Origin: a virus
DNA: 24,843 nucleotides
Direction: 5' to 3' (one strand)
IMG/VR virus record: IMGVR_UViG_3300049491_000467
Span: 1-24,843 of that record
Shown here: positions 1,155-18,558 of the stretch, one piece after another
Layout of the letters: each line of letters opens with the position of its first letter
How positions within the stretch are numbered: position 1 is the stretch's first letter
Made by a program: the position numbers and the translations under genes
Notes under the pieces: generated by a model
What the model was told of the DNA's origin: nothing
What the model saw: only the letters and a program-made list of their open reading frames with translations
Databases searched by the model: none

Positions 1155-1206
1155 TTAACCATAGGGAGCATGATTCCTTGATAAGCACGGCTGGCCGGGG
1201 TAGGGT
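1155..1206 (+). promoter_or_regulatory. TTAACCAT-associated promoter for the 1288 gene
   Basis: TTAACCAT (1155-1162) is followed after 8 bp by TGATTCCTTGATA (1171-1183). The last six bases, TTGATA (1178-1183), can serve as -35, with TAGGGT (1201-1206) as -10 after a 17-bp spacer. The whole arrangement recurs with identical spacing at 1805, which supports a real composite promoter. Confidence 0.6.
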
Positions 1207-1287
1207 GCCGACGTGCGGTGAAAAACGGGCACAATCGCCGCATCATGTGCAGCGAGTTTCGCAAGGATTCAGAATGAGGAGACGCAC

Positions 1288-1800
1288 ATGATCACAACTT
1301 TGCAGCAGCTCACCGGGCTTAGTGTGTCCACGGAAGCTTTGAAAGACAACTGTATCAGAATGGCGGCGGAGCTGGGTGACGACAACGACAGAGTGCTAAG
1401 GGTGGTTGTGGCGGCGGATAGGCAGATGAAGATTTATGTCGATAGCCTGTCGTATGCCAAAGAGAATCTGACGGACCCGAGAAAGATGGCCCTGCTCTTT
1501 GGCCTGGGTACGTCGAGAAGGAACAGGATCGAGCAGACCTTGCAGAAGATGAGCGGGGCACAGGTGCTGGCGGCGGCAAAGCTGGCCGAGGCTAGCGAGG
1601 ACGGGATTCTTGCTGCTGCGGTGATCTTACACAATGACGCACTGAAGTCAGACATCAGCCCCTTCAATTCCTCTGTTCTGGCAGAGGTGGTTTTCAGGGA
1701 CGGGTGCGAGTCTGCTGAGATGTTTATCAGCTACATCGAAAAAGATGCTGCGGAGATATCGGCTTTGCTGACACTTCTTCAGGGCCTCACCAAGGCATAA
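1288..1800 (+). CDS. Hypothetical 170-residue helical protein
   Basis: This is the first gene after the repeat region. The ATG at 1288 follows an AGGAG ribosome binding site about 7 bp upstream (1275-1279), and the promoter-like element at 1155-1206 lies before it. The protein is acidic to neutral, rich in Ala, Leu, Glu and Lys, and looks almost wholly alpha-helical, with no membrane segment, cysteine cluster or recognisable catalytic motif. I do not recognise the family. The gene stands alone: the next promoter-like element begins directly after its stop codon. A small soluble early protein is the most that can be inferred from its place next to the control region. Confidence 0.8.
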   Translation: MITTLQQLTGLSVSTEALKDNCIRMAAELGDDNDRVLRVVVAADRQMKIYVDSLSYAKENLTDPRKMALLFGLGTSRRNRIEQTLQKMSGAQVLAAAKLAEASEDGILAAAVILHNDALKSDISPFNSSVLAEVVFRDGCESAEMFISYIEKDAAEISALLTLLQGLTKA

Positions 1801-1804
1801 GACG

Positions 1805-1856
1805 TTAACCATGAGTGATATGATTCCTTGATATTTTACGCCGGATGATATAGGTT
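1805..1856 (+). promoter_or_regulatory. TTAACCAT-associated promoter for the 1864 operon
   Basis: TTAACCAT (1805-1812), 8 bp, then TGATTCCTTGATA (1821-1833), exactly as at 1155. TTGATA (1828-1833) and TAGGTT (1851-1856) form -35 and -10 boxes with a 17-bp spacer. Transcription would start at about 1863-1864, that is at the A of the following ATG. Confidence 0.65.
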
Positions 1857-1863
1857 CCAGATC

Positions 1864-2076
1864 ATGTCAGAGCAAACGCCCCACACCCTATATACAACCG
1901 AAGACTTTGCGGAAGAGTACAACGGCGAGCCCTATTATGGGAATCCGATGCTGGATCGCAACGGAGAGGTTGTCTTGGCTTTATGCAAGGTGTGCGGACA
2001 GGCCGAGGGCGAGTTGCAGACCTATTGCCCGGGGCCGAACTGGCGGAAACAGGAGAGAGTGGATGAAATATTTTAA
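1864..2076 (+). CDS. Hypothetical 70-residue protein, possible zinc knuckle
   Basis: A short acidic protein with the pattern CKVCG (residues 41-45) and a further Cys about ten residues later (TYCPG). This could be part of a metal site, but a fourth ligand is not evident. There is no ribosome binding site before ATG 1864; the predicted start of transcription coincides with the ATG, so a leaderless message is plausible. Its end overlaps the next gene by 14 bp. Family and function are not recognised. An opposite-strand frame covers the same DNA but has no translation signals. Confidence 0.65.
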   Translation: MSEQTPHTLYTTEDFAEEYNGEPYYGNPMLDRNGEVVLALCKVCGQAEGELQTYCPGPNWRKQERVDEIF

Positions 2077-2461
2077 AGAGCTTGCGACCGGTGAGGAGTT
2101 CCGGTTCTGGCGGGATGGAGTCACTTATGTCAGAACAGCCGGTGACCGGTACTTCTGCCTTGATCGTGAGTCTCTTAGCGTTATCGAAACAGATGCCTGC
2201 CAGCGGGTATTCACGAAGGGCATCCAGACTGTTAGTGTGTGGGAGGGCGCTGCGGATTTTCGTGAGCTGGAGATCGGTGAAGAGTTCAAGTTTGCCGCCG
2301 AAGGATATGATACCGTGTGGACCAAGGTCAGGGTGCCCCAAGGCACCGAGGCCACTCACTGGGCACATGCCGTGAACTCTGATTGGAACTTGACGGCGCC
2401 CATACATCCCGATACCGCCGTCAAGACCGGAACGGCCAAGACAGTCGAGGTTTGGGAATGA
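2063..2461 (+). CDS. Hypothetical protein with two copies of a small phage domain
   Basis: The 132-residue protein starts at ATG 2063, behind AGGAG at 2051-2055; the open frame extends further upstream, but only this start has a ribosome binding site. Two related halves are visible. The first begins FKELATGEEFRFWRDGVTYVRT and the second (from about residue 65) FRELEIGEEFKFAAEGYDTVWTK. Each has the pattern F-x-E-L-x-x-G-E-E-F-x-F, then a Tyr or aromatic/Val-Thr strand, and a short strand at the end. Similar F..L..GE.F.F modules are common in small phage proteins of unknown role. The stop overlaps the next start (ATGA). Confidence 0.8.
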   Translation: MKYFKELATGEEFRFWRDGVTYVRTAGDRYFCLDRESLSVIETDACQRVFTKGIQTVSVWEGAADFRELEIGEEFKFAAEGYDTVWTKVRVPQGTEATHWAHAVNSDWNLTAPIHPDTAVKTGTAKTVEVWE

Positions 2462-2532
2462 AAAAATTCAACAGACCAGCGAGGGGGCCCTTGCAAGGAA
2501 ACGCCCGAGGCACGTTTCTCGCGGATGCGTGA
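2458..2532 (+). CDS. Possible 24-residue peptide linking two genes
   Basis: ATG 2458 overlaps the stop of the previous gene in an ATGA arrangement, and the frame runs MKKFNRPARG... to a TGA at 2530-2532, overlapping the next ATG (2525) by 8 bp. The overlap at both ends is like that of its real neighbours, and the next gene has no clear ribosome binding site, so this may be a translated coupling peptide. It is basic and has no recognisable function. Short length makes chance possible. Confidence 0.4.
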   Translation: MKKFNRPARGPLQGNARGTFLADA

Positions 2533-2737
2533 CTGGATCAGGGGACAGCTCGCGGTTGAGGGCCCGTTCGTCCCCTTCGTTCTGACAGATGGTGTGCGAT
2601 ACAACCTGCGCAACGGATACGTTACGTCGCCTATGAGGGACGGGACCGCCCTCGTCAACGGACGGGAGTATTCCTGGGATGCGGATGGCGAGTGCAAGTT
2701 TGATGCGGGTTATGAGATAGTAGGAGTTTGCGAATGA
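2525..2737 (+). CDS. Hypothetical 70-residue protein
   Basis: A small protein of probable beta structure. Its middle (VPFVLTDGVRYNLRNGYVTSP and WDADGECKFDAGYEIVGV) alternates hydrophobic strands and turns, somewhat like the F..L..GE.F.F modules of the gene before it, but the similarity is too weak to call homology. ATG 2525 is the only in-frame start; no Shine-Dalgarno site is evident, so translation probably depends on ribosomes arriving from upstream. Its stop overlaps the next start (ATGA at 2734). Confidence 0.7.
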   Translation: MRDWIRGQLAVEGPFVPFVLTDGVRYNLRNGYVTSPMRDGTALVNGREYSWDADGECKFDAGYEIVGVCE

Positions 2738-2958
2738 AGTTCAAATGCGGATTGACTCGTGAGGAGATGGATGCGCGTGACCAGAGGGATGCAGCCAGGC
2801 TGGAGGCCCGTAAGAAGTGGCACCCTTTTTATGCTATCCTGCCCCGGGAGGTCTCGCCGGGAGAGTGCGTGGCGTTTGCGTGGATAGAGAGGCGGAGGGT
2901 TGACCGCAACGTGCGTATGCTGGGCGATCCCTTTTGGGAGTGGGAGTACCGGGCATGA
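2734..2958 (+). CDS. Hypothetical protein, IERRRV family copy 1
   Basis: A 74-residue basic protein. The start is ATG 2734, 7-8 bp after AGGAG (2722-2726) and overlapping the preceding TGA. The C-terminal half contains KWHPFYAILPRE, then V-A-F-x-W-IERRRV-x-x-N, then W-E-W-E-Y-R-A. This order is repeated in the following gene, so the two are tandem paralogues. The N-terminal part (REEMDARDQRDAARLEARK) is a charged helix found only in this copy. No known domain is recognised. The stop overlaps the next start (ATGA). Confidence 0.8.
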   Translation: MKFKCGLTREEMDARDQRDAARLEARKKWHPFYAILPREVSPGECVAFAWIERRRVDRNVRMLGDPFWEWEYRA

Positions 2959-3140
2959 AATTATTTTTTCCTAAATCCAAACCTCGGGACATCGAGGAGT
3001 GGCATGCTCTTTACCCGATATGGCCCCGCCGTATTGGGGACCATCTCGTATTTTTTGAGAAAATAGAACGTCGCCGGGTGGTTGTAAACGAAGGTAACTG
3101 GGGTGGTGGGTACGAATATGTTTGGGAGTATCGCTTTTGA
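2955..3140 (+). CDS. Hypothetical protein, IERRRV family copy 2
   Basis: A 61-residue protein starting at ATG 2955 inside the ATGA overlap; an upstream in-frame TTG at 2934 is less likely. It matches its neighbour through EWHALYPIWPRR, then V-F-F-x-K-IERRRV-x-x-N, then Y-V-W-E-Y-R-F, but lacks the N-terminal charged helix. Conserved aromatic residues and the IERRRV block suggest a small folded beta domain. It is the last gene of the 1864 operon; a spacer of about 150 bp with a TTAACCAT element follows. Confidence 0.8.
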   Translation: MKLFFPKSKPRDIEEWHALYPIWPRRIGDHLVFFEKIERRRVVVNEGNWGGGYEYVWEYRF

Positions 3141-3228
3141 CCAAGCTCACCCCGCTGACAAGAAGTTGGAGAGTTATTGATCCGTACACGGAAAATATTT
3201 CAAAAAAAAAGATTTCAAGCCGCCGCCG

Positions 3229-3274
3229 TTAACCATTCGGTCGAGTTTTTCTTGTAGTGCGATTAGTTTTATGA
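3229..3274 (+). promoter_or_regulatory. TTAACCAT element with TTG-type -35
   Basis: TTAACCAT (3229-3236) is followed 23 bp from its first base by TTGTAG (3252-3257), the same phase as at 1155, 1805 and 4149. A matching -10 box is not clear (the region 3265-3274 is TTTTATGA-like), so promoter strength is uncertain. The next gene starts at 3288. Confidence 0.45.
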
Positions 3275-3287
3275 GAAGGAGCGGGGT

Positions 3288-3587
3288 ATGAAAAAGTTCT
3301 CAAAGGCCAATCCGCTTCGGGTCATAGTTTTTCGGGAATCCAAAATGTGGGTGGCTCAGGGGCTTGAGTACGATGTGGGCGCCCAAGGCTTCAGCTTAAA
3401 AGAACTTATTGACAGGCTCAAGTTCACATATGATCTTGAAGAGACATTGGGTTTTGTGGCGATGAGCGTGACGCCCAAGCGCTTTTACGATATGTGGGAT
3501 AATAGCGTCGGTCATCTTCTTCTCAGAAGCTCAACCCATCCAGAGATTTCTTTTGCCATGACCGGGCAGGACGGATATGGGCAGTGA
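3288..3587 (+). CDS. HicB-like small protein
   Basis: A 99-residue protein with a strong AAGGAG ribosome binding site at 3276-3281. The N-terminal half, RVIVFRESKMWVAQGLEYDVGAQG then the helix SLKELIDRLKFTY, fits the beta-beta-alpha pattern of HicB/DUF1902-type partial RNase H folds (established pattern: strand, E-x-x-x-W-x-A-x-x-L-E-x-D, strand, Leu-rich helix). Phages carry many solitary members of this group. No HicA-like toxin is next to it, so a toxin-antitoxin role is not supported. Its TGA overlaps a GTG (GTGA at 3584) that could start the next frame. Confidence 0.7.
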   Translation: MKKFSKANPLRVIVFRESKMWVAQGLEYDVGAQGFSLKELIDRLKFTYDLEETLGFVAMSVTPKRFYDMWDNSVGHLLLRSSTHPEISFAMTGQDGYGQ

Positions 3588-3706
3588 CGGTCAGTCCTTG
3601 GTACCGCGCAGCATACGAAGGGAGGGGCTTGGCTAACTGGGTTGAGCACGTCCCTCTGGGTGACGGGACATCCAGTTTTAAAAAAAAAATAAAAGAAGGA
3701 GACAAC

Positions 3707-4141
3707 ATGAGCGAAGAAATTGCACTTAAAAAAGTCGAGGCTTGGAGGACCAGTTTTGGGGACCTCTACGAGAAAAGAGAGCTCGCCATCAAGGAGGAGC
3801 TCCGGAATATCCTGGAGCCGGTGACCCTTAGTGGGAAGCCTGCTGTCGAGTGGTTGATGGAGAAAAGGGCGAGGGCGGTACCCTTGCTCCAGATGCTGGA
3901 TGAGTCACCCCGGACGGATGACGAGCCGGAGGACACTTATAAGGCAGGGGAGACGCTCTACCCGATGTATAGGTCACCGGGCAGCATATTGCAGTATTTC
4001 AGGAGTCCAGACAGAACATTGATCAGCAGGTTCTTCATGTGGGATGGCACACCACAGGGGAGGGATTACTGGAAAGCTCTTGAGAGTGGCGAAACTCTGA
4101 TGACCGCAGAGGACTATAAGTATCTAGCCAGTCTGCTGTAG
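3707..4141 (+). CDS. Hypothetical 144-residue acidic protein
   Basis: The start chosen is ATG 3707, preceded by AGAAGGAGA (3694-3702), the best ribosome binding site in this part of the window. The frame stays open back to GTG 3584, which overlaps the previous stop; the extra 41 residues (including WYRAAYEGRGLANWVEH) look protein-like, so a longer form cannot be excluded. From 3707 the protein begins with long charged helices (EEIALKKVEAWRTSF..LYEKRELAIKEELRNIL) and ends with YWKALESGETLMTAEDYKYLASLL. No domain is recognised. It ends a two-gene unit before the 4149 promoter. Confidence 0.75.
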   Translation: MSEEIALKKVEAWRTSFGDLYEKRELAIKEELRNILEPVTLSGKPAVEWLMEKRARAVPLLQMLDESPRTDDEPEDTYKAGETLYPMYRSPGSILQYFRSPDRTLISRFFMWDGTPQGRDYWKALESGETLMTAEDYKYLASLL

Positions 4142-4148
4142 TCCCCGA

Positions 4149-4200
4149 TTAACCATCCCGAAAACGTGCTATTGACTTTTTGACCGGCGAGGAATATAGC
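4149..4200 (+). promoter_or_regulatory. Strong TTAACCAT-associated promoter
   Basis: TTGACT (4172-4177) and TATAGC (4195-4200) are separated by 17 bp and form the best sigma70-type promoter in the early block. TTAACCAT (4149-4156) starts 23 bp before the -35. The promoter faces the operon 4246-5960. Confidence 0.7.
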
Positions 4201-4245
4201 CCGCGCGAAGGCACTTCTGCTTAATGCGGATATGGGCAAAAAAGT

Positions 4246-4398
4246 ATGGCCGATGTTCTTATGGTTGTGTGGGGGTTAACAGAGCGCTCTGGGGCCATGG
4301 CCTGCCAGGTGGTCACGGAAAAGCAGTGCGAAGCAGTCAGAGATCAATTGAAAAAAACTAATAAAGTAGAGTGTATTCCCTTGAAAGAACCCGCATGA
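4246..4398 (+). CDS. Hypothetical 50-residue protein
   Basis: ATG 4246 opens a 50-codon frame beginning MADVLMVVWGL and containing MACQVVTEKQCEAVRDQL, then a terminal block with KVECIP. It ends in an ATGA overlap with the next gene. The pattern (hydrophobic strand, Gln-rich strand, Cys in a helix, C-terminal V-x-C-I-P) recalls small phage proteins with a ..C....L......CIP arrangement; the three cysteines may matter. Its ribosome binding site is weak. The overlap with the next gene and the sensible composition make it likely to be real. It is the first gene after the promoter at 4172. Confidence 0.65.
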   Translation: MADVLMVVWGLTERSGAMACQVVTEKQCEAVRDQLKKTNKVECIPLKEPA

Positions 4399-4904
4399 AC
4401 CGATCTGGAATAGTGAACGTGATACCGAGTATGCAAACGATGCGCCGGTGGGAGAAGCGTCGGGAGCAATATCTGATATCTCCGGTTGGCCGCTGGGGTA
4501 GGAAATGGCCCGGCTTGCAGACCCTGGTTTTTCGGATGGCTGTAAATCTCGGCATGGTCAGTAACCATCGGGAAGCTTTCGATTCAGTTGAAGTGGTCCG
4601 GCTCGATATAAACGAGACGGAGGTGAGGAGCAAGGTTCTGGCAGCCGCAGAGCCCTATCTCGATATGGACATGGACCCGAATGACCTGATCTGCATCATG
4701 GGGCCGGAGAACTTTGCGGATACGGCGCGTAAGTGGACTCAGGCTGAGATGGTCATGGCCAGTCACCCATATCGTGTCGAGATGCAGGTCTCAGAAAGGG
4801 GACAGTACCCTAGACAGACAAAGGCCGTTCTTCTTGACATACCAGTTGTGGTCTCTCCGTATGTGAAGGGTCTTGTCGTTTTGCCAAGGAGTCATTTTCA
4901 GTGA
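4395..4904 (+). CDS. Hypothetical 169-residue protein
   Basis: The start is ATG 4395, coupled to the preceding stop (ATGA); a GTG at 4371 in frame is less likely because the upstream gene covers it. The N-terminus is very basic (MRRWEKRREQY..VGRWGRKWPG), and the C-terminal two thirds contain alternating strands and helices (EVVRLDINETEVRSKVL; DLICIMGPENFADTARKW; AVLLDIPVVVSPYVKGLVVLP). The family is not recognised. A nucleic-acid-binding N-terminus is possible from charge alone. The stop overlaps GTG 4901. Confidence 0.75.
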   Translation: MNRSGIVNVIPSMQTMRRWEKRREQYLISPVGRWGRKWPGLQTLVFRMAVNLGMVSNHREAFDSVEVVRLDINETEVRSKVLAAAEPYLDMDMDPNDLICIMGPENFADTARKWTQAEMVMASHPYRVEMQVSERGQYPRQTKAVLLDIPVVVSPYVKGLVVLPRSHFQ

Positions 4905-5251
4905 GGGCGCCTACCGATAAACGGGACAGTCCCTGGATGATGAACCAGATAAACGAGTTGCCAGCCGGTGGGCTTCTTTTGATCAGGTTTTCTTCCGACC
5001 GGGAGGCGGTCTTGCGGGTATTGAAAAAGCGCAACAGGGGGGACGTTCGTGTAGAAACAATAGCGACCGCGCTGAGCGACTGTCTGAGAGGAGTGGCCTT
5101 CACAGGAGTTTGCGTAGACTATTTTTCAAACGTCAGTGCCACGGAGATGAAAGAGTTAAGGGAAAAAGTCCGCACCACGGACCCCTCCCAGGGCATGCTC
5201 GTTTACTATGACGCGAACTTCTATCGCCCAACCAAGTTTACGGAGATATGA
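4901..5251 (+). CDS. Hypothetical 116-residue protein
   Basis: GTG 4901 overlaps the previous stop (GTGA) and lies behind AAGGAG (4887-4892), which supports this unusual start codon. The protein has an alpha/beta pattern: GGLLLIRFSSDREAVLRVLKKRNRG (strand then helix), VETIATALSDCLRGVAFTGVCVDYF, and a C-terminal strand MLVYYDANF. No catalytic motif is evident and I do not recognise the family. It sits in the middle of the overlapping operon that begins at 4246. Confidence 0.75.
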   Translation: MRAPTDKRDSPWMMNQINELPAGGLLLIRFSSDREAVLRVLKKRNRGDVRVETIATALSDCLRGVAFTGVCVDYFSNVSATEMKELREKVRTTDPSQGMLVYYDANFYRPTKFTEI

Positions 5252-5252
5252 A

Positions 5253-5420
5253 ATGGAATCGGATGACCTTAGATGCACCAGCGATGACATGGACTCTCTT
5301 CACGACATCGTACACAAGAGACGTAAGGGGGCGGGGGAGGTCCGAGTCCCTGTGGAGATTCTGAACAAACTTTTATTTGACCACGCGGACGCGCTGACTC
5401 TGCTTAAGAGGCCCCGATGA
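5253..5420 (+). CDS. Hypothetical 55-residue protein
   Basis: Starts at ATG 5253 with GGAG at 5242-5245, 1 bp after the previous stop. The C-terminal part VRVPVEILNKLLFDHADALTLLKRP resembles short phage regulatory-type proteins that carry a V-P-x-E-x-L-x-x-L-x-D-H-x-A helix pair; the function of these is unknown to me. A competing +1 frame from ATG 5248 gives only about 38 residues of poor composition and is not favoured. The stop overlaps the next start (ATGA at 5417). Confidence 0.7.
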   Translation: MESDDLRCTSDDMDSLHDIVHKRRKGAGEVRVPVEILNKLLFDHADALTLLKRPR

Positions 5421-5509
5421 CCCCGCACCTTTCAGCAGAAGGAGTTGCGTACTTGGCGTTGGCTGTTGTTCTTTTTTGGTTTGTTTTTTGTGTGAGGCCC
5501 CCTAGATGA
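5417..5509 (+). CDS. 30-residue single-pass membrane peptide
   Basis: ATG 5417 overlaps the preceding stop, and the TGA at 5507-5509 overlaps the next ATG (5506), so the frame is locked at both ends by ATGA junctions. The product MTPHLSAEGVAYLALAVVLFWF... is one hydrophobic segment (about residues 10-25) closed by RPPR. An N-out/C-in inner-membrane peptide is likely by the positive-inside rule. Comparable tiny membrane proteins occur often in phage early operons, with mostly unknown roles. Confidence 0.7.
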   Translation: MTPHLSAEGVAYLALAVVLFWFVFCVRPPR

Positions 5510-5727
5510 TATACGAAAACCGAGTAGATGGAAAATACTGGAACCGGTGGAAGGATGTGTACAGGTATCATGCCAAGACTCCTGCCGGAGGCCCGAGTCC
5601 TGAAGACGTTCACAGCTCTACAGGATTCCTTAGAGTGACTCTCGACGGGGTTCCATACTGGGGGTTCACCCGGGAGGAGGAGAGAGATGCGTTTGTCCAG
5701 ACCTATGGTGCGGAGATAGTTTTATGA
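5506..5727 (+). CDS. Hypothetical 73-residue protein
   Basis: Starts in the ATGA overlap at 5506 and ends in another at 5724. The protein is aromatic-rich (YWNRWKDVYRYHAKTP; GVPYWGFTREEERDAFVQTYG) and appears soluble, with a beta strand region in the middle (GFLRVTLDGVPYW) and a charged C-terminal helix. No known family is recognised. It is translated between two membrane proteins and could be their soluble partner, but only the operon position suggests that. Confidence 0.7.
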   Translation: MIYENRVDGKYWNRWKDVYRYHAKTPAGGPSPEDVHSSTGFLRVTLDGVPYWGFTREEERDAFVQTYGAEIVL

Positions 5728-5960
5728 TGTTTTTTTGTGCCCTTATCATTTACCTGCTGGGGACAGTGAACATGATGGCTCTGTGTGAGCAGGTTTTCGA
5801 GTCTCGCAGGCCGGTAGTCCTTATGGTCGCCACCCTTATCTGCTGCGCTCTCTGGCCCGTCATAACCCTGTACGCCCTTGTCGTGTGGACTTACGAGCAC
5901 ATTAACCAGTCGGTCATAAAAGCATTGAAGGCTGCTAAGGATGGTGTAAAGAAGCGCTGA
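5724..5960 (+). CDS. Two-pass membrane protein
   Basis: A 78-residue protein with hydrophobic segments at about residues 3-20 (FFCALIIYLLGTVNMMAL) and 31-55 (VVLMVATLICCALWPVITLYALVVW), joined by a short charged loop (EQVFESRRP) and followed by a basic amphipathic tail ending AAKDGVKKR. It should sit in the inner membrane. It is too early in the genome to assign as a holin on position, and no endolysin is next to it. It is the last gene of the operon from 4246. Confidence 0.75.
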   Translation: MMFFCALIIYLLGTVNMMALCEQVFESRRPVVLMVATLICCALWPVITLYALVVWTYEHINQSVIKALKAAKDGVKKR

Positions 5961-6006
5961 ACAAAGCTAGCTAGAGTATGATGAAATATTTCAACAGGAG
6001 ATTTAG

Positions 6007-6330
6007 ATGAAGCGCACTGCAAAAGTATCAACCAAAAGAGCAGGTGGGTATGGGACAAAGAAAAAGCTCAAAGCCTCGGTTAAGGCCCCGGTTAAGAAAG
6101 CTGCCAAGGTCCGAGCTTTAGAGGCGGAGACCGCTGTGTTTTTCTCACAGCCTAACACTACCGCAGCTTTAGCGGGCAGGCCCCCTTTGATGGACTACAG
6201 TTCCTCGGCTATGTTGCGGGAGTCACAAGGCTCTGAAAGCTCTTCAGTATTTAAAGCCTGTGGCTTTTTTGTTGTGGGCATCTTTTTAGGGTATCTCCTT
6301 GTGATGATCCTATCGGCCATCCTCGGCTAG
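6007..6330 (+). CDS. Lys-rich protein with C-terminal membrane anchor
   Basis: ATG 6007 follows AGGAG (5996-6000). The first 40 residues are strongly basic and resemble histone-H1/AlgP-type tails (KKKLKASVKAPVKKAAKV), the middle is a low-complexity Ser/Ala/Pro linker, and residues about 83-106 form one membrane helix (ACGFFVVGIFLGYLLVMILSAIL). A tail-anchored protein with a cationic cytoplasmic domain that could touch DNA or acidic lipids is the obvious reading. I know no named family with this arrangement. Confidence 0.75.
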   Translation: MKRTAKVSTKRAGGYGTKKKLKASVKAPVKKAAKVRALEAETAVFFSQPNTTAALAGRPPLMDYSSSAMLRESQGSESSSVFKACGFFVVGIFLGYLLVMILSAILG

Positions 6331-6352
6331 TCGCAGGGGGAGATATATTTCT

Positions 6353-9599: not shown

Positions 9600-9648
9600 T
9601 TGACGCCTCTCATACCGAAGTGATAGACATGCGGAAGTCATTAACCAT
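9600..9648 (+). promoter_or_regulatory. Promoter with downstream TTAACCAT
   Basis: TTGACG (9600-9605) and TAGACA (9624-9629) are 18 bp apart. TTAACCAT (9641-9648) lies just downstream of the expected start of transcription and upstream of the ribosome binding site AGGAGG, a typical operator position. It drives the first block of virion genes from 9663. Confidence 0.5.
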
Positions 9649-9662: not shown

Positions 9663-10172
9663 ATGCCTATAGTTTCCACAGATATCAAATATCGCCTGTC
9701 TGGCGGCGCGGCCAACAGCGACGTAAACGCCTCTCTCGGCGGCGCTAAGTCATCTGTCGAGGTTGTCACAGCCACTCTTCACAATCTGTTCGATCAGGTA
9801 TCCGGCGATGAGTCTTTGGCGGGTGATATAGAGTACCGTTGCATCTACGTTCACAACGGCCATGGCTCTCTGTCCCTCCAAAACGCGGTAGTCTGGATCG
9901 ACACAAACACCCCTTCCACAGACACCACGGTTGCCATAGCCTTGGCTGGCGAAGGTTTGAATGGCACCGCCGAAACCGTCGCTAACGAAAACACAGCCCC
10001 GGCAGGCGAGTCCTTCACCTCCCCAGCTACCAAGGGTGCGGGTCTCTCCCTTGGCACAATTCCGGCTGGACAGCACTATGCTATCTGGATTCGTCGCACA
10101 GTTACCGCAGGCGCGGCTGCGTTCAATACCGATTCTGTGATAGTCAAGGTCGAGGGCGATACCGCCGCATAA
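9663..10172 (+). CDS. Putative virion structural protein
   Basis: A 169-residue beta-rich protein poor in Lys and Cys, with a strong AGGAGG site 5-6 bp before the ATG. The sequence LHNLFDQVSGDESLAGDIEYRCIYVHNGHGSL followed by paired strands, NENTAPAGESFTSP and a terminal YAIWIRRTV matches a phage protein type that I know only as virion-associated or hypothetical. The fold suggested is an Ig-like or jelly-roll sandwich. It is followed by AGGAGG and a small gene in the same unit. A decoration or fibre role is possible. Confidence 0.65.
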   Translation: MPIVSTDIKYRLSGGAANSDVNASLGGAKSSVEVVTATLHNLFDQVSGDESLAGDIEYRCIYVHNGHGSLSLQNAVVWIDTNTPSTDTTVAIALAGEGLNGTAETVANENTAPAGESFTSPATKGAGLSLGTIPAGQHYAIWIRRTVTAGAAAFNTDSVIVKVEGDTAA

Positions 10173-11474: not shown

Positions 11475-12587
11475 ATGGCGGGCTTTCTCAATAAAACCTA
11501 CTTCGGTTCGATAGGTAATAGCCCACCTTTATCGCTCGCTGATACCTGGCGTGAAGCTCCGCTTATTGAGTTAACAGACGCGCCCACGACCCCTGTGAGT
11601 CAAACCGCCGATCTTAGGTGGAATGTGGCCGCTCTCGCCAATCGCACTGCCGATCTTCGGTGGAATGTGGCCGCTCTCGCCAATCGCACTGCCGATCTTC
11701 GGTGGAACGTAGCCGCGCTTGTGAACAGGTCCGCTGATCTTCGGTGGAATGTGGCCGCTCTCGCCAATCGCACTGCCGATCTCAGGTGGAACATCATAGC
11801 CCAAGTTAATCGCTCTGCCGATCTTCGGTGGAATGTGGCCGCTCTCGCCAATCGCACTGCCGATCTTCGGTGGAATGTGGCTGCGCTCGCTAATCGCTCT
11901 GCCGATCTCAGGTGGAACGTAGCCGCGCTTGTGAACAGGTCTGCCGATCTTAGGTGGAACATCATAGCCCAAGTTAATCGCTCTGTCGATCTCAGGTGGA
12001 ATGTAGCCTCTCTCGCCAATCGTTCTGCCGATCTTCGTTGGAACGTGGCGGCACTAGCTAATCGCTCTGCCGATCTTCGGTGGAATGTGGCTGCGCTCGC
12101 CAATCGCACTGCCGATCTTCGGTGGAATGTGGCTGCGCTAGCTAATCGCTCTGCCGATCTCAGGTGGAACGTAGCTGAGTTAGTAGACAACTCACTTGAC
12201 ATAAGGTGGGACATGCTAGCTCAAGTCAATCGTTCCGCTGATCTCAGGTGGGAGGTAGCGGCACTTGTAAACAGGTCTGCCGATCTTCGTTGGGACGACG
12301 CGGCCTTGGCGGGTCAGTCATTAGAGCTACAGTGGGATGTGCTTTCAACGGTTTTGACTGCGGCAAGGATTCTTGATCTTCGGTGGAGCATCATAGCCCA
12401 AGTTAATCGCTCTGCCGATCTTAGGTGGAATGTGGCCGCTCTCGCCAATCGCACTGCCGATCTTCGGTGGCAGGTACTAGAACTTTCAGAGCTGACATAT
12501 AACCTGAACAGTTCACGGGCTATCAAGCAGAAGTCGGATACACGTATTCTTCGTCTTGGCCGAGCGCCTAGGATTTTGATATATTAA
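11475..12587 (+). CDS. Repeat protein of 21 DLRW 14-mers
   Basis: A 370-residue protein: a 43-residue head, 21 consecutive copies of a 14-residue unit with consensus (S/T)ADLRWNVAALANR (residues 44-340; copy 18 carries three extra residues), and a basic 30-residue tail (KQKSDTRILRLGRAPRILIY). The unit alternates hydrophobic residues with invariant Asp-Leu-Arg-Trp, suggesting a regular beta-strand stack or solenoid fibre. DLRW/LRW-type repeats are known to me from phage structural proteins without a defined role. No ribosome binding site is clear before ATG 11475; translation may be coupled to the gene ending at 11471. A fibre or spacer function is inferred. Confidence 0.75.
   Translation: MAGFLNKTYFGSIGNSPPLSLADTWREAPLIELTDAPTTPVSQTADLRWNVAALANRTADLRWNVAALANRTADLRWNVAALVNRSADLRWNVAALANRTADLRWNIIAQVNRSADLRWNVAALANRTADLRWNVAALANRSADLRWNVAALVNRSADLRWNIIAQVNRSVDLRWNVASLANRSADLRWNVAALANRSADLRWNVAALANRTADLRWNVAALANRSADLRWNVAELVDNSLDIRWDMLAQVNRSADLRWEVAALVNRSADLRWDDAALAGQSLELQWDVLSTVLTAARILDLRWSIIAQVNRSADLRWNVAALANRTADLRWQVLELSELTYNLNSSRAIKQKSDTRILRLGRAPRILIY
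11604..12494 (+). repeat. 42-bp in-frame tandem repeat array
   Basis: The DNA encoding the DLRW repeats has a 42-bp period and 21 units. Many are nearly identical in nucleotide sequence (for example the units around 11650, 11830 and 12430), while units 14-18 are much more diverged. Two variants, the standard NVAALANR type and an NIIAQVNR type, alternate in blocks, as expected from segmental duplication or gene conversion of multi-unit cassettes. Slippage or recombination should make the copy number variable. Confidence 0.85.
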
Positions 12588-12648: not shown

Positions 12649-12654
12649 ATTTTG

Positions 12655-13005: not shown

Positions 13006-13014
13006 CTACCGGGG

Positions 13015-13051: not shown

Positions 13052-13062
13052 TTGTCATCGTT

Positions 13063-13123: not shown

Positions 13124-13141
13124 CGTGGATGGCGACTAAGG

Positions 13142-13170
13142 TTGACACCCCCCAGACATATGTGTGATTA
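13142..13170 (+). promoter_or_regulatory. Promoter for the terminase unit
   Basis: TTGACA (13142-13147) and TGATTA (13165-13170) with a 17-bp spacer, followed by an AGAAGGAGA ribosome binding site before ATG 13197. It is the nearer of two promoters before the packaging genes. Confidence 0.55.
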
Positions 13171-13196
13171 TGCCTTCAATTAAGAAGGAGATCACG

Positions 13197-13223
13197 ATGA
13201 CAAATAAAAGGCCAACGCCTTAG
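13197..13223 (+). CDS. 8-codon leader ORF in frame with terminase
   Basis: ATG 13197 has the only strong ribosome binding site (AGAAGGAGA) before the terminase. It encodes MTNKRPTP and stops at TAG 13221-13223, directly abutting and in frame with the terminase ATG 13224. TAG is used as an ordinary stop elsewhere in the window. Terminase would then be made by reinitiation, or by occasional amber read-through as an N-terminally extended form. A simple point mutation of an originally longer gene is the alternative. Confidence 0.6.
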   Translation: MTNKRPTP

Positions 13224-14813
13224 ATGGCCAAAAACCTTGCCCCCCACACACCCAAAGTTTTGGATACCCGGCTGTTGTCTGCTTTCGAGGACGGCAGCAA
13301 AGCCGAGTGGCGTCTTATGTCAGACGCCACAGGCACGGGTGTGTGGAAGCCTTTTCACATAGACAAGGAAGGAGCTATCATAAATGAACCTTCTTGGATG
13401 GCCCTACCGGGCTCCCAAGATTCATTCCTGACATGCCCGGTTTTCGAGGCCCTATTTGAGGGGGGTAGAGGGTTTGGAAAAACCCTAGTCCTGCTCATGG
13501 ATTTTGCAAAAGAAGTAGGCCAAGGTTATGGCAAGGCTTGGCGGGGTATCTTGTTCCGCAGGTCTTATGGAGACTTGGATGACGTTGTTTTAAAAATAGA
13601 GGCATTCTTTCCAAAGATATTTCCTGGCTTCAGGTTTTTGAAGTCTAAATCCGAATACGCGGCGGTATGGCCGACTGGGGAACAGCTACTTCTCAGGCAC
13701 ATGATGGATGAGAACGATTATGAATCATATCACGGTCACCAGTATCCGTGGATTGGTTTTGAAGAGTTGACGCAGTGGGAGAACGATAAAGCTTATCGAC
13801 TCATGTTCTCCTGCTGCCGCCCCACCGCACCAGGAGTTCCTTGCCGAGTTCGGGCAACCACCAACCCATATGGAGTCGGACATAGCTGGGTAAAAAAACG
13901 TTTTCGACTCCCGCACTGGCGCGGCAAGATTATAAATGCTACGGACCCAATATCAAAATTAAAGGATGTCCCCCGGGTGGCCATACACGGCAGTCTTAAA
14001 GAGAATTTTATTCTCTTGCACGATGCACCCAACTACGCGACTCAGATTGCACAGGCCGCTCAGAACCCCGCCCAAGCAAAAGCATGGACGGCGGGATCGT
14101 GGGACGTTAACGCGGGCGGCATGGTGGACGATGTTTGGGATGCTCAGCACCACGTCATCCCGCACTTTCCTGCTAAACAGATTCCTCGGAGTTGGCGGAT
14201 AACCCGGGCATACGATCATGGGCAGTCGCACCCCTTCTCTGTTGGATGGTGGCTTGAATCTAACGGGGAGTCTATTAAGTTTGAGGGGAAAGAGTACGGG
14301 CGTATTCGAGGGGATTTGATATTATATGACGAGTGGTACGGCACCACGGGCGAGGATCAGACCGGGGTTCGTATGGAGGCGTCCAGGATAGGGCAGGGGA
14401 TACTTGATCGTGAAAAGGATTTTGGCCTTGTTGGCCGAGTGCTGCCCGGCCCGGCAGACACAGAGATATACTCAAAGGATCAGCGGGGCACCGGCAGGTC
14501 TCCGGCGGATGACATGGAGGATGTGGGCGTTTACTGGGAGCGGGCCGACAAGTCCCCCGGCTCTCGTAAGAGGGGGTGGCAGATGCTCCGATCCAAGCTG
14601 ACTCAGGCCAAACCTAACCCCGATGGTACGCGCGAAAAGCCGGGTCTTTTTGTTACGGACAGGTGCAAATATTGGCTGATGTATGTCCCCACCATGCCCC
14701 GGGATAAAGCCGACATGGATGATGTGCCCGATAAGTATGAGGACCATTCGGCGGACATGACAAGGTATCGGTTGAACTGGGAGATACCTGGAATGTGGAG
14801 GAGAAGTTTCTAG
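13224..14813 (+). CDS. terL: Terminase large subunit
   Basis: The packaging motor of 529 residues. The ATPase domain shows a Walker A GGRGFGKT (80-87), Walker B YPWIGFEE (174-181, with catalytic Glu) and a motif-III region around RATTNPYG (210-216). The RNase H-like nuclease domain shows YDHG (Asp331), LYDEWYG (Asp369/Glu370) and GPADTEIY (Asp412). Order, spacing and length are normal for TerL. It binds the portal encoded next and cuts concatemeric DNA. Its ATG abuts the stop of an 8-codon leader frame and has no independent Shine-Dalgarno site. Confidence 0.93.
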   Translation: MAKNLAPHTPKVLDTRLLSAFEDGSKAEWRLMSDATGTGVWKPFHIDKEGAIINEPSWMALPGSQDSFLTCPVFEALFEGGRGFGKTLVLLMDFAKEVGQGYGKAWRGILFRRSYGDLDDVVLKIEAFFPKIFPGFRFLKSKSEYAAVWPTGEQLLLRHMMDENDYESYHGHQYPWIGFEELTQWENDKAYRLMFSCCRPTAPGVPCRVRATTNPYGVGHSWVKKRFRLPHWRGKIINATDPISKLKDVPRVAIHGSLKENFILLHDAPNYATQIAQAAQNPAQAKAWTAGSWDVNAGGMVDDVWDAQHHVIPHFPAKQIPRSWRITRAYDHGQSHPFSVGWWLESNGESIKFEGKEYGRIRGDLILYDEWYGTTGEDQTGVRMEASRIGQGILDREKDFGLVGRVLPGPADTEIYSKDQRGTGRSPADDMEDVGVYWERADKSPGSRKRGWQMLRSKLTQAKPNPDGTREKPGLFVTDRCKYWLMYVPTMPRDKADMDDVPDKYEDHSADMTRYRLNWEIPGMWRRSF

Positions 14814-14814
14814 T

Positions 14815-14844
14815 TTGACACTGCTCGGCCACCCGTGCTATTAA
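14815..14844 (+). promoter_or_regulatory. Promoter for the portal gene
   Basis: TTGACA (14815-14820) begins one base after the terminase stop codon, and TATTAA (14839-14844) follows after 18 bp, giving a leader of about 20 nt before GTG 14871. GCTATTAAC at the -10 would also suit an alphaproteobacterial sigma factor. Confidence 0.6.
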
Positions 14845-14870
14845 CGCTTAAATTTCTAAGGAGACAGCCA

Positions 14871-16397
14871 GTGCCAGATACAGACGTAAAGAAGGCCCTA
14901 GACCCCTCCTCAACCAGTATCGCGTATGACTACATGGCGCCTAAGTGGGACATGATAGGCTGTGTGCTTGGGGGGACGGCCACCATGCGAGAGGCGGGTA
15001 CAGCTTATCTCCCGCAGCACCCCCATGAGAGCTTGGATAATTACAAGAGTCGGTTGGGCACTGCTACACTGCTTAATCTCACAGAGATCACGCTTGAATC
15101 TTTGGTGGGCAAACCTTTTTCGGAACTGGTTGTTTTGAACGATGCGCCGCCGGAAATAAGCGAGCTCGCAAAAGACGTTGACTTGCAGGGAAACAACCTG
15201 CACGTATTCTGTCGTCAGTGGTTCAGGGAGGGGGTAGCCAAGTCATTCTGTCATGTGTTGGTTGATCGCCCTAGGCTAGCCCCGGTAATAGGTCGTGAGC
15301 GGACCCTGGCAGATGATTTGGAAGATTCTAATCGACCCTACTGGACGGTAATACCTCCAGAGAACGTCCTGTTCATCCAATATGCTAAAATGGGCGGCGG
15401 TCATGTTCCCGTTCACGTCCGTATCCAAGAGGAGCTTATTGAGCGAGTGGGCTACACTGAGGTCTGCATTCGTCAGATACGGGTTCTGGAGCCAGGAACC
15501 TGGACTATTTTTAGAGAGGTTAAGCAGAAGAATGGTCAAGTAGTTTGGTCTAAGTATGACGCTGATGTGACCGGAATAGACTACATACCATTCGTAACCT
15601 TTTATGCAAACGGCAGCTCCTCGGTGGGTAAGCCGCCTCTAGAGGACTTGGCTTTTCTAAACATTCGTCACTGGCAGTCCACATCTGATCAAACGAATAT
15701 CCTGACAGTGGCCCGGTTCCCCATGCTGGCGGTCTCCGGCGCCCACGACACTCCGGGAAAGGATGTCATGACCATTGGGCCGCGTCAGCTTTTGGCTACT
15801 CGGGCCGAGAATGGAAAATACTATTATGTAGAGCATAATGGTAAAGCCATTCAGGCGGGCGCTGCCGACCTTGAAAAGCTAGAGCAGGACATGGCCTCTT
15901 ACGGCGCGGAGTTTTTGAAAAAAAGGCCCGGCGGCGCCACGGCCACTGCCCGAGCACTGGATTCGGCTGAGGCTACGTCGCCCTTGCAGGACATGACTAT
16001 CCGTTTCATGGATGCTGTTGACACTCTCTTGTGGATGACATCGGACTGGATGGGGGTCAGCACTGATTCGACGGTCACGATAACTACAGACTTCGGTCCC
16101 GAGGATATAAAGGACGTTGATCTCCGCACCTTGGCTGAGATGCGTCGGAACAGAGACATATCCCGCGTCGGATATATCGGCGAGTTGAAAAGGCGGGGAG
16201 CTATTGCCGAGACTTTTGATGAGGAGGAGGACATAAAACTTCTCCAGACAGAGCCCCTTATTCAGTCTCCCTTCGCCACCGGGTTCAATACGGATGGCTC
16301 CGCAGCCGCAAACGTGGGGAACTCTATCAAGAAAAAAGGCGCGGCCTCGCCTGAGAAAGATAAAAAGAAAGTGACCAAGGATGAGCCCGCCGAATAA
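14871..16397 (+). CDS. Portal protein (DUF4055 type)
   Basis: 508 residues starting at GTG 14871, 6 bp after AAGGAGA (14858-14864); an in-frame opening from 14835 lies within the -10 region and is rejected. The sequence follows the DUF4055 portal pattern: early YDYMAPKWDMIGCVLGGTATMREAGTAYLPQHPHES, SRLGTATLLNLTEITLESLVGKPFSE, VLVDRPR, the wing strands PYWTVIPPENVLF, IPFVTFYAN, PPLEDLAFLNIRHWQS with DQTNIL, and a long C-terminal helix with TARALDSAEATSPLQ. It forms the dodecameric gate through which TerL drives DNA. The end is a Lys/Glu-rich disordered tail overlapping the next gene by 17 bp. Confidence 0.88.
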   Translation: MPDTDVKKALDPSSTSIAYDYMAPKWDMIGCVLGGTATMREAGTAYLPQHPHESLDNYKSRLGTATLLNLTEITLESLVGKPFSELVVLNDAPPEISELAKDVDLQGNNLHVFCRQWFREGVAKSFCHVLVDRPRLAPVIGRERTLADDLEDSNRPYWTVIPPENVLFIQYAKMGGGHVPVHVRIQEELIERVGYTEVCIRQIRVLEPGTWTIFREVKQKNGQVVWSKYDADVTGIDYIPFVTFYANGSSSVGKPPLEDLAFLNIRHWQSTSDQTNILTVARFPMLAVSGAHDTPGKDVMTIGPRQLLATRAENGKYYYVEHNGKAIQAGAADLEKLEQDMASYGAEFLKKRPGGATATARALDSAEATSPLQDMTIRFMDAVDTLLWMTSDWMGVSTDSTVTITTDFGPEDIKDVDLRTLAEMRRNRDISRVGYIGELKRRGAIAETFDEEEDIKLLQTEPLIQSPFATGFNTDGSAAANVGNSIKKKGAASPEKDKKKVTKDEPAE

Positions 16398-17103
16398 CTC
16401 GGATGAGTGCGGGCCGGACCCGTGGGAGATTGATGATTGCGGGCCGGACCCGTGGGAGATTGATGATTGCGGGCCCGATCCATGGGAGCCGGACGAGGTT
16501 GTTGAGTCTAGGGAGCTGGCCATATCAGAGGAGGACAGCGATGAGATGTGGTCGGTTAAGTACGCTCCCGGGGCGAAGGAGCCGACTAAAAGAGACTTAG
16601 AGGCTCGGGAAAAGCGCAACCGGTTTTTGGACGTGCTCATGCGAACAGGTAATGCGGTGCTGGCCGCTGCCCGGGTCGGCGTTGGCTGGCGGGCGCTTTA
16701 TCTAGCAAGGAGCAGGCACCCTGATTTTGACTCTAACTGGAACATGGCCACAAAGATATACAACACATTCGTGGCTCAGGAGAAAATGCGTAAGAGGGCG
16801 CTGGACGGGATCAGAAAGCCGATCTACTATCAAGGAAACATCGTCGGATACGAAGTCTACTATGATAGCGGGCTGACGCAGTTCTACATGCGCGGAGCTA
16901 TGCCGGATGTTTATGGGGACAAGCGGGAGTTGAAGATAGAGGGGGGATTGACCTTCGGCGTGGCGCTACTGCCTTCAACCATGAAAAGCTTGGGGGAGTG
17001 GGAGGATAAGGCCAAAAGGCTCTATGATAATGGAGAGATCATAGACATAACACCGACCTCAACGGAATCCCCAGCACCCAAAGAGGGCCTGGGCAGAGGA
17101 TAG
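16381..17103 (+). CDS. Small-terminase-like DNA-binding protein
   Basis: 240 residues. Residues 80-125 (NRFLDVLMRTGNAVLAAARVGVGWRALYLARSRHPDFDSNWNMA) fit the helix-turn-helix of phage small terminases (R-F-L-x-x-L-x-x-x-G-N-x-x-x-A-A, then Y-x-x-R-x-x-x-P-x-F-x-x-x-W). It is followed by RALDG, a Y-Q-G strand pair and FYMRGAMPDVYGDK, which are also usual for the family. The N-terminus is an acidic tail with three CGPDPWEIDD repeats. Start ATG 16381 overlaps the portal. A position after the portal, not before TerL, is unusual, so another DNA-binding role is possible. Confidence 0.7.
   Translation: MSPPNNSDECGPDPWEIDDCGPDPWEIDDCGPDPWEPDEVVESRELAISEEDSDEMWSVKYAPGAKEPTKRDLEAREKRNRFLDVLMRTGNAVLAAARVGVGWRALYLARSRHPDFDSNWNMATKIYNTFVAQEKMRKRALDGIRKPIYYQGNIVGYEVYYDSGLTQFYMRGAMPDVYGDKRELKIEGGLTFGVALLPSTMKSLGEWEDKAKRLYDNGEIIDITPTSTESPAPKEGLGRG
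16408..16488 (+). repeat. 30-bp tandem repeat in the small-terminase-like gene
   Basis: Two perfect 30-bp units at 16408-16437 and 16438-16467 and a third diverged unit from 16468 encode CGPDPWEIDD three times. The perfect identity suggests a recent duplication. Cys, Trp and Asp in each unit could bind metal or form an acidic protein-binding tail. Confidence 0.85.
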
Positions 17104-17113
17104 TTTCGAGCTA

Positions 17114-17142
17114 TTGACTTATGTGTTTTGTGGGAGTAGCTT
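17114..17142 (+). promoter_or_regulatory. Promoter-like sequence
   Basis: TTGACT (17114-17119) and TAGCTT (17137-17142) with a 17-bp spacer, directly after the stop of the small-terminase-like gene and before the secreted-protein gene at 17176. Confidence 0.5.
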
Positions 17143-17175
17143 TCTAGTCTAGGTATCAACATGGAGGACACCATA

Positions 17176-17547
17176 ATGAAGATTCTGCGCACGGCTCTCG
17201 CCGCACTGTTTTTTTCGTCTCCACTCAGCCCGGCCTCAGCGGGAAACCTGCCTATCGGCTCTGTTGAGATGGGGCACTGGTATCACTGCCAAGAGCTTGC
17301 AGACATCAAGTTGCTGACTGCGGAGGCAGAGATCGCCGGGGGTCCAGCCAGCTATGTCATCTGGCGCAAGCTGGCATCTGAGGGTCGTTGTATCCAAGAA
17401 CCTGCCCCGAAGGCCGTAAAGATCGTCAAGTTGGTTGAGCAGGTGCGGACACCCACGGGGGAGACCATCACTATCGTTGAGGCGGAATCTGACGGTAAAC
17501 CCTATTACTTCATCACCAGCTCGGTCCCCCTTCAGCCCGGGGCTTGA
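17176..17547 (+). CDS. Secreted 123-residue protein inside the capsid block
   Basis: From ATG 17176 (GGAGG at 17163-17167) the product has a clear Sec signal peptide: basic start MKILR, hydrophobic core TALAALFFSSPL and an A-x-A cleavage site in SPASA-GNL near residue 22. The start at 17161 would place acidic residues before it and is less likely. The mature part has two Cys (WYHCQEL and GRCIQE), which may form a disulphide in the periplasm, and a C-terminal beta region. It has its own promoter. Superinfection exclusion or another envelope function is plausible, but no family is recognised. Confidence 0.75.
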   Translation: MKILRTALAALFFSSPLSPASAGNLPIGSVEMGHWYHCQELADIKLLTAEAEIAGGPASYVIWRKLASEGRCIQEPAPKAVKIVKLVEQVRTPTGETITIVEAESDGKPYYFITSSVPLQPGA

Positions 17548-17572
17548 CACTAGTTAACCATGTCAGTATGTT
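17544..17572 (+). promoter_or_regulatory. Promoter with TTAACCAT in the spacer
   Basis: TTGACA (17544-17549) and TATGTT (17567-17572) are 17 bp apart, and TTAACCAT (17554-17561) occupies the spacer. Binding there should block the promoter. The -10 also overlaps the left arm of the following inverted repeat. Confidence 0.55.
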
Positions 17573-17607
17573 CACAGGTAAGAGGCACTTGACCTCACCT
17601 GTGAACA
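17569..17607 (+). promoter_or_regulatory. 11-bp perfect inverted repeat before the scaffold gene
   Basis: TGTTCACAGGT (17569-17579) is perfectly complementary to ACCTGTGAACA (17597-17607), with an inner GAGG/CCTC stem (17582-17585/17593-17596) around a 7-nt loop. As DNA it could be a two-site operator over the promoter; as RNA it would be a stable hairpin ending about 8 nt before the AAGGAG of the scaffold gene. No T-run follows, so it is not a standard terminator. Confidence 0.7.
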
Positions 17608-17627
17608 AATGACAAGGAGAACAACCC

Positions 17628-18443
17628 ATGTGGGATTTTATCACCAACGCTTCCGTGGATTCTATTGACGCGGTTCCTGACGAGCACCAGTCCTATTATG
17701 AAGAGGACAAAGCCACAAAGAAATTTGTCTTGAAAGCCGACGTGCGGCCCTTGGCTGAAGGGTACAGCAATGCGAACCGAAACGTCGCCAAACTCACCCT
17801 CACCCGTAAAGAAGATGGTAAGAAAGATCAAACCCGTCGATTGGTTATTGATGGCCTCAAGGCCATTTTGCCAGAGCTTGGAGTAGAGCTTGAGGGCGAT
17901 GACATCACCAAGATTCCGGAGATCATGAAGGAAAAGATCACTGAGCTTGTTGAGAGCGGCAAGAGCGGCAAGGATAATAAAGTCAATATCGAGAATGTGA
18001 AAAAGGCCATGGAGACTCAGATCACCAAGCTGAAGGAGACTCACGCCCAAGAGCTCGGCGCCATGTCCCGGTCAATTGAAGAGTACCTTGTGGATTCAGT
18101 AGCTAACGCGGCATTCGCCAAGGCAGGCACGGTAGATAATGGATCAGACCTTCTGTTGCCAAAGGTCCGTGCCAGTGTGAAAGTTATCCGGACGGATGAT
18201 GGTAAGTACGTCCCTCGGGTGATTGATGAGGACGGCACATACAAGTTCAACTCCAAGGGCACGGAGATGTCAGTCGAAGAACTCGTGGGCGATCTCAAAA
18301 CAAAGTTCCCCAATATGTTTAAGTCGGAGAACAAGGGGGGAGGCGGCAGCACAAAGTCCGGCAGTAATCGGACTCTCGACAGGTCCACAGAGAAGACTTC
18401 TGTGGACAAGATCGCTTCTGGCCTTGGCGGGCTAGGCAAGTAG
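17628..18443 (+). CDS. Capsid scaffolding protein
   Basis: 271 residues, very charged, with a predicted coiled coil in the middle (roughly 115-160: VKKAMETQITKLKETHAQELGAMSRSIEEYL), then the block SVANAAFAKAGTVDNGSDLLLPKVRASVKV, an acidic EDGTY strand and a Gly/Ser-rich C-terminal tail with a final basic helix. This layout and the position just before the major capsid gene are those of phage head scaffolds, whose C-terminal helix usually contacts the capsid protein. No protease motif is seen. It has its own AAGGAG site and ends at a strong terminator. Confidence 0.85.
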   Translation: MWDFITNASVDSIDAVPDEHQSYYEEDKATKKFVLKADVRPLAEGYSNANRNVAKLTLTRKEDGKKDQTRRLVIDGLKAILPELGVELEGDDITKIPEIMKEKITELVESGKSGKDNKVNIENVKKAMETQITKLKETHAQELGAMSRSIEEYLVDSVANAAFAKAGTVDNGSDLLLPKVRASVKVIRTDDGKYVPRVIDEDGTYKFNSKGTEMSVEELVGDLKTKFPNMFKSENKGGGGSTKSGSNRTLDRSTEKTSVDKIASGLGGLGK

Positions 18444-18461
18444 CCAGTCAAGAAAACGATG

Positions 18462-18494
18462 ATCGGCCTTCAGAAATGGGGGCCGATTTTTTTT
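18462..18494 (+). terminator. Intrinsic terminator after the scaffold gene
   Basis: ATCGGCC (18462-18468) pairs with GGCCGAT (18481-18487), with a 12-nt loop, and an eight-base T-run (18487-18494) follows. It separates scaffold transcription from that of the major capsid gene. Confidence 0.85.
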
Positions 18495-18521
18495 GTCAAT
18501 TAGCGGCGGTAAGTTGAGGGG

Positions 18522-18558
18522 TTGACACGTTAACCATTAAAGGAGTATTTAGTTGACA
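18522..18558 (+). promoter_or_regulatory. Tandem promoter region of the major capsid gene
   Basis: A first TTGACA (18522-18527) has TATTTA (18546-18551) 18 bp on, with TTAACCAT (18530-18537) in its spacer. A second TTGACA (18553-18558) starts exactly 23 bp after the start of TTAACCAT, the phase seen at four other sites; its -10 is poor (TTTAAG near 18572). One element could thus silence the first promoter while activating the second. Confidence 0.55.

Follow-up and report, generated by a model that had tools for sequence, protein, structure and literature searches.

Putative CtrA half-sites in the late structural promoters of a Mesyanzhinovviridae-like siphophage

The IMG/VR virus record IMGVR_UViG_3300049491_000467 carries an 8-bp word, TTAACCAT, that recurs in the intergenic DNA of its 24,843 bases, the whole stretch analysed here and referred to as the window. 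This word is very probably the site of a DNA-binding regulator of some kind. The reading favoured here, with a probability of around 0.6, is that TTAACCAT is a half-site of CtrA, a response regulator that governs the alphaproteobacterial cell cycle, that the record belongs to a Mesyanzhinovviridae-like siphophage of an alphaproteobacterium, and that CtrA represses the late structural promoters of this phage, both CtrA and the host being inferred. What is observed directly is an excess of intergenic sites, a cluster of sites in one gap, conservation of the site in the capsid promoter, and its conservation in the scaffold promoter of one relative (G001), with an altered arrangement in three others. 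The window also encodes terminase, portal, capsid, and tail proteins related to those of Mesyanzhinovviridae siphophages.

Abundance and placement of the word

A count of TTAACCAT across the sequence, which the initial annotation of this DNA had recommended, was run on the window and gives 10 copies on both strands against 0.61 expected, a number reached in none of 100 shuffles. Seven copies lie on the plus strand (1155, 1805, 3229, 4149, 9641, 17554, and 18530), each of them intergenic; within the 2,487 intergenic bases that remain when a dense TTAA array at 305–720 is excluded, 0.05 copies are expected on the same strand. The three minus-strand copies (373, 386, and 513) all fall inside this array. 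Half-sites matching the reported CtrA motif are over-represented, as would be expected of a CtrA-regulated (LPEG-type) alphaproteobacterial phage.

Five of the plus-strand copies had been described as standing exactly 23 bases before a TTG-type −35 box, and their positions, strand, intergenic placement, and offset are all borne out: the hexamers that begin 23 bases after the first base of the word are TTGATA (1155), TTGATA (1805), TTGTAG (3229), TTGACT (4149), and TTGACA (18530). TTG at this common offset in five of the seven intergenic plus-strand copies is a degree of sharing found in none of 20,000 random intergenic sets. The copies at 1155 and 1805 agree at 23 of 31 bases; with 1155 left out, the TTG is shared by four of the remaining six, a result reached once in 20,000 random sets. 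Both the copy number and the shared offset support the earlier judgement that a chance origin is very unlikely. TTG is missing at +23 of the copies at 9641 and 17554; the regularity is genuine yet not universal. To speak of five promoters was accurate for the copies with TTG at +23 but selective, since it omitted 9641, 17554, and the three minus-strand copies in the array.

Promoter layouts around the sites

A weighted scan for sigma-70-like −35/−10 pairs within 60 bp of each TTAACCAT revealed two layouts. At 1155, 1805, and 4149, the word lies 23 bp before the −35 of the best-scoring pair; at 17554 (scaffold) and 18530 (capsid), it lies in the promoter spacer, with the −35 of the best pair upstream of the word. 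The features concerned, in which half-site denotes the putative CtrA half-site, are as follows.

305–720, no strand assigned: array of about 28 TTAA sites (TTAACCTT, TTAACCAT, and TTAATCAT), many pairs 13 bp apart, in the gap upstream of rightward genes
1155–1162, plus strand: TTAACCAT half-site of the upstream class, 23 bp before the −35 (sigma-70 scan)
1178–1206, plus strand: promoter TTGATA (1178–1183), 17 bp, TAGGGT (1201–1206), best pair within 60 bp
1805–1812, plus strand: TTAACCAT half-site of the upstream class (sigma-70 scan)
1828–1856, plus strand: promoter TTGATA (1828–1833), 17 bp, TAGGTT (1851–1856) (sigma-70 scan)
3229–3236, plus strand: TTAACCAT half-site, with TTGTAG at +23 lacking a good −10 and no convincing promoter
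4149–4156, plus strand: TTAACCAT half-site of the upstream class (sigma-70 scan)
4172–4200, plus strand: promoter TTGACT (4172–4177), 17 bp, TATAGC (4195–4200) (sigma-70 scan)
9600–9629, plus strand: promoter TTGACG (9600–9605), 18 bp, TAGACA (9624–9629) (sigma-70 scan)
9641–9648, plus strand: TTAACCAT immediately ahead of the ribosome-binding site for the gene at 9663, downstream of the promoter TTGACG-18-TAGACA
17544–17572, plus strand: scaffold-gene promoter TTGACA (17544–17549), 17 bp, TATGTT (17567–17572) (scan; kept in G001 as TTGACG-17-TATGTT)
17554–17561, plus strand: TTAACCAT half-site in the scaffold promoter spacer (scan and relatives)
17628–18443, plus strand: head scaffolding protein gene (phrog_206, 9e-27)
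18522–18551, plus strand: major capsid promoter TTGACA (18522–18527), 18 bp, TATTTA (18546–18551) (scan)
18530–18537, plus strand: TTAACCAT half-site in the capsid promoter spacer, TTAACCA invariant in seven phages including Delta
18692–19612, plus strand: major capsid protein gene (phrog_212, 3e-72)

The TTG words at +23, previously taken for −35 boxes, are indeed the best −35 at 1155, 1805, and 4149, but not at 18530, nor at 3229, where a −10 partner is missing. The TTGACA at +23 of 18530 sits downstream of the capsid −10, and relatives read TTTACA or TGGACA in its place, with no −10 partner. In G001, the nearest of the relatives, TTAACCAC at position 6224 stands 22 bp before TTGATT-17-TAGGAT, the spacer sequence being unrelated. 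The fixed distance typical of a class I activator is found at 1155, 1805, 4149, and, as 22 bp, at G001 6224, and is not found at 3229, 9641, 17554, or 18530. A pairing of TTAACC as the −35 with TTGAYA as the −10 across a 17-bp spacer was also considered and rejected, as TTGAYA makes a poor −10 and other pairs outscore this one in most promoters.

Conservation in related phages

A comparison with related phages, also suggested by the initial annotation, places the capsid site at a conserved position in seven phages, but there inside the promoter and not 23 bp before a −35. The aligned capsid promoters (the window, G001, G002, G003, G007, G009, and Delta) all have the same −35 core and TTAACCA and differ elsewhere in the spacer. 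This layout is common to five distinct relatives and the Brevundimonas phage Delta (L004, L005, and L006, which are G003–G005, are near-identical at these promoters and were counted once), and the site is also present in the capsid promoters of L031 and L074. Delta (full name vB_BsubS-Delta), whose capsid protein is 61% identical to that of the window, carries TTAACCAT in the promoter spacer 151 bp before its capsid gene, compared with 162 bp in the window; the Brevundimonas phage Poludnitsa has the word before its capsid gene as well. Neither TTAAC nor GTTAA occurs within 300 bp upstream of the capsid gene in any of 12 relatives with gamma- or betaproteobacterial hosts. Mapped onto a capsid-protein tree of 49 rows, the trait requires about five changes, and well-supported branches force no fewer than two of them.

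The scaffold layout is kept in G001; three other relatives (G003, G007, and L015) carry the site in reverse orientation across the −10 or the start (ATGGTTAA or AGGGTTAA). A word placed within the core promoter, and reversed over the −10/+1 region in relatives, makes repression a better fit than activation for the scaffold and capsid promoters.

Two further elements accompany the capsid promoter. Immediately 3′ of the capsid −10 (18553–18568 in the window), a block, (T)nACAACGGTTTCTT, is conserved in five distinct relatives; ACGGTTTCTT is found again where the G003 array ends (L086 265–274). Capsid-gene leaders across the family (around 18597–18620 in the window; L002, L009–L031, and L390–L399) contain short motifs resembling hairpins, in which the loop is of the GUGAN type and the stem varies, such as GG-GUGAU-CC, GA-GUGAU-UC, and GGC-GUGAU-GCC, with 23 of the 28 leaders checked matching. 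The motif has no match among Rfam families and may be an element akin to boxB or one that controls translation.

The TTAA array

Sites are concentrated in a single gap: 28 TTAA occur in the 421 bases at 300–720, against 3.1 per kb elsewhere, and 11 pairs in the array are spaced at 13 bp (0.06 expected), with one at 11 bp. The array is proposed to be a CtrA-binding control region. Relative G003 begins in a similar array (L086 1–260), which shows the spacing of 13 too. The corresponding gap of Delta, 1,312 bp with 30 TTAA, occupies the same place as the window array, upstream of small genes, terminase, portal, scaffold, and capsid, and its TTAA spacings peak at 6, 7, 11, 13, 17, and 19. Arrays in the Erythrobacter phages R22L and L02 and the Caulobacter phage BL64 prefer a TTAA spacing of 13 over 11; these phages came to light in weak matches to the window array (E 2 to 5) and to the L308 array, so that the parallel is supportive without being proof.

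A 13-bp-spaced operator general across viruses was rejected, given that TTAACCAT pairs in IMG/VR occur at spacings of 11 (55 contigs), 14 (56), and 13 (50), about equally often, so that the distance between sites is not diagnostic by itself. Some of the spacing-14 set consists of heptamer microsatellites, and in L357, L370, L371, and L376, microsatellites of the form (TTAACCA)n or CCATTCACCATTAACC mimic the motif in other viral contigs. A separate 14.8-kb contig, L308 (IMGVR_UViG_3300010368_000237), holds 37 TTAACCAT and 182 TTAA, with 39 pairs spaced at 11 and 37 spaced at 13, and is by its sequence a candidate for an extreme CtrA-type phage. The window array is itself flanked by other repeats, namely a second family, TTTAATTAGGGC(T)..., in four to six copies at 48–210, to its left, and AT-rich 28-bp tandem repeats (AATTATTGATTTAAAAATTTAATTCCAA) adjoining it at 793–890, the latter a possible origin of replication.

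CtrA as the candidate factor

The initial annotation had left the factor as an unknown phage or host protein. A regulator site is upheld, but a known host protein, CtrA, now leads, because TTAACCAT is identical to an ungapped variant of the Caulobacter crescentus CtrA motif reported in PMC6180460. CtrA half-sites are described as repressing when placed over the −10 and activating when placed near the −35 (PMC4287350). On phage DNA, according to PMC9437464, a probe from the Delta gap is bound by CtrA in gel shift, DELTA_120 is repressed by CtrA, and two CbK promoters and one Mesorhizobium phage promoter are activated by it. Host CtrA is thus the best candidate, and probably the factor at TTAACCAT, by virtue of motif identity, CtrA action on phage promoters, and the host pattern of capsid-promoter sites. 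As noted earlier for this DNA, no regulator gene is recognised in the window: a Pfam scan of 20 window open reading frames (ORFs) returned none, PF00486 is absent from the record and from the available fragments of the lineage, and PHROGs named only enzymes and structural proteins among the window proteins.

Several observations weigh against CtrA or against the proposed host. The canonical TTAA-N7-TTAA is nearly absent (one exact instance in the array, five when one mismatch is allowed); the promoter half-sites have no exact TTAA-N7-TTAA partner, spacing 13 dominates instead, and the IMG/VR pair counts show no database-wide preference for that spacing. The upstream class at −59 is atypical for CtrA activation. 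TTGACA-N1-3-TTAACCAT is rare, occurring in just four of 142 alphaproteobacterial genomes, and was rejected as a widespread kind of host promoter. The site is missing from the 300 bp ahead of the capsid gene in two Rhodobacter phages of the family, and no contig of the lineage could be tied to a host. The nearest structural proteins are those of Pseudomonas and Bordetella phages, at about 50% and too distant to indicate a host. GANTC is not depleted (1.14 of expected, compared with 0.15 in Delta and 0.03 in the Rhodobacter phage RcSimone-Hastad), leaving no depletion from which a host could be assigned. The array style, for its part, resembles that of alphaproteobacterial phages.

Two other approaches were set aside. 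Capsid relatives in bacterial genomes comprised eight contigs in mixed metagenome-assembled genomes (MAGs) with no usable host information, and counts of GTTAACCAT in alphaproteobacterial genomes and in another class overlapped with the backward control, giving no clear signal.

Alternative explanations

A regulator encoded by the phage itself, either a repressor or an OmpR-type CtrA mimic from the unsequenced half of the genome, might use the array as its main operator. Operator-like geometry, with sites in either orientation, many in one gap and single ones at outlying promoters, agrees with such a protein, as does a 13-bp pairing unlike the N7 of CtrA, and Delta, with the same layout, encodes the stand-alone Trans_reg_C domain protein DELTA_100. 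This account is nevertheless rather unlikely: the available lineage fragments contain no PF00486 protein, DELTA_100 is nearest BasR/PmrA among solved structures and is not shown to be CtrA-like, and 13-bp pairing recurs in unrelated phages, all with alphaproteobacterial hosts, which a host factor fits better. DELTA_100 (Delta MN862068, 77612–78130, minus strand) is of interest in its own right as a stand-alone OmpR-type (Trans_reg_C) protein of a phage under CtrA control.

That the main function of TTAACCAT is to bind an activator 23 bp before the −35, beside RNA polymerase, was the proposal of the initial annotation and is improbable as a general account. The spacing itself holds, with good −35/−10 pairs at 1155, 1805, and 4149, a 22-bp counterpart across an unrelated spacer in G001, and more +23 TTG sharing than in any of the 20,000 random sets. 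In both the window and relatives, however, the scaffold and capsid sites lie inside the core promoter, the TTGACA at +23 of 18530 varies and follows the −10, and 3229, 9641, and 17554 do not fit.

Least probable is an array that serves as a replication origin or partition site, with the promoter copies as stray initiator-binding sites: dense direct repeats beside the AT-rich 28-bp tandem repeats in a long gene-free region are suggestive of an origin, but the promoter copies hold conserved positions inside core promoters of relatives, and the syntenic Delta gap binds CtrA (PMC9437464). Origin and CtrA functions could coexist in the array.

Proposed mode of action

Under host CtrA control, phosphorylated CtrA would bind both the half-sites and the array. 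In the promoters of the scaffold and capsid genes, it would fill the space between −35 and −10 (or, in relatives, the −10/start region) and exclude host RNA polymerase, so that the particle genes would be silent while CtrA is active, in a swarmer-like state, and would fire once CtrA is cleared. At the left-arm promoters (1155, 1805, and 4149), the site at about −59 could activate transcription or be a mere upstream accessory site. Particle production would be expected to be postponed for as long as CtrA is active, which would agree with the lytic deferment hypothesis, an idea whose authors note that the phage genes with CtrA sites on which it is based have no known function (PMC9437464).

The phage may thus time particle production by the host cell cycle. 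A bolder and less likely version makes CtrA a two-way switch that activates the left arm from about −59 and represses scaffold and capsid from within the core promoter, gating assembly by the cell cycle, with two or more separate origins in the family. That phages make use of CtrA is already known; neither the −59 layout nor conserved half-sites within late structural promoters were found described in the available portions of the literature examined. If the reading is true, half-sites in the capsid and scaffold promoters link CtrA directly to virion production, and searching only for full TTAA-N7-TTAA would miss such phages.

Comparison with known systems

The stoperators of mycobacteriophage L5 are, as are the window sites, short, asymmetric, intergenic, and biased to the direction of transcription; unlike these sites, they are bound by a phage repressor, lie mostly outside core promoters, and have an unrelated sequence.

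The gap of Delta (PMC9437464) is the closest parallel, with capsid and terminase kinship and a TTAA array upstream of small genes, terminase, portal, and capsid. Delta also shares TTAACCAT in the capsid promoter spacer, which was not found described in the available text of that study, and differs in having six exact TTAA-N7-TTAA pairs in its gap, against one in the window array. The CtrA-regulated genes presented there are without known function, whereas the window half-sites stand at capsid and scaffold promoters. Half-site promoters of C. crescentus, as set out in PMC4287350, likewise have single TTAA-type sites at fixed positions, falling in Caulobacter into repressing and activating classes by position. 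There, however, repressing sites cover the −10 and activating sites lie near the −35, whereas those of the window lie in the −35/−10 spacer or at about −59. In the Sphingomonas phage vB_StuS_MMDA13, 12-bp direct repeats ending in TTAACCAT lie in a gap between divergent gene blocks and have been assigned to CtrA (PMC7472734 and PMC9437464); unlike in the window, the four copies are upstream of one gene, and the phage belongs to a different genus.

Other protein features

Two protein features were seen in passing. A 370-aa protein encoded at 11475–12587 of the window consists mostly of a repeated 14-residue unit (ADLRWNVAALANRS/T), and the terminase large subunit of G003 (L086 10241–12808, an 855-aa ORF) has an intein-like insert inside its Walker A motif.

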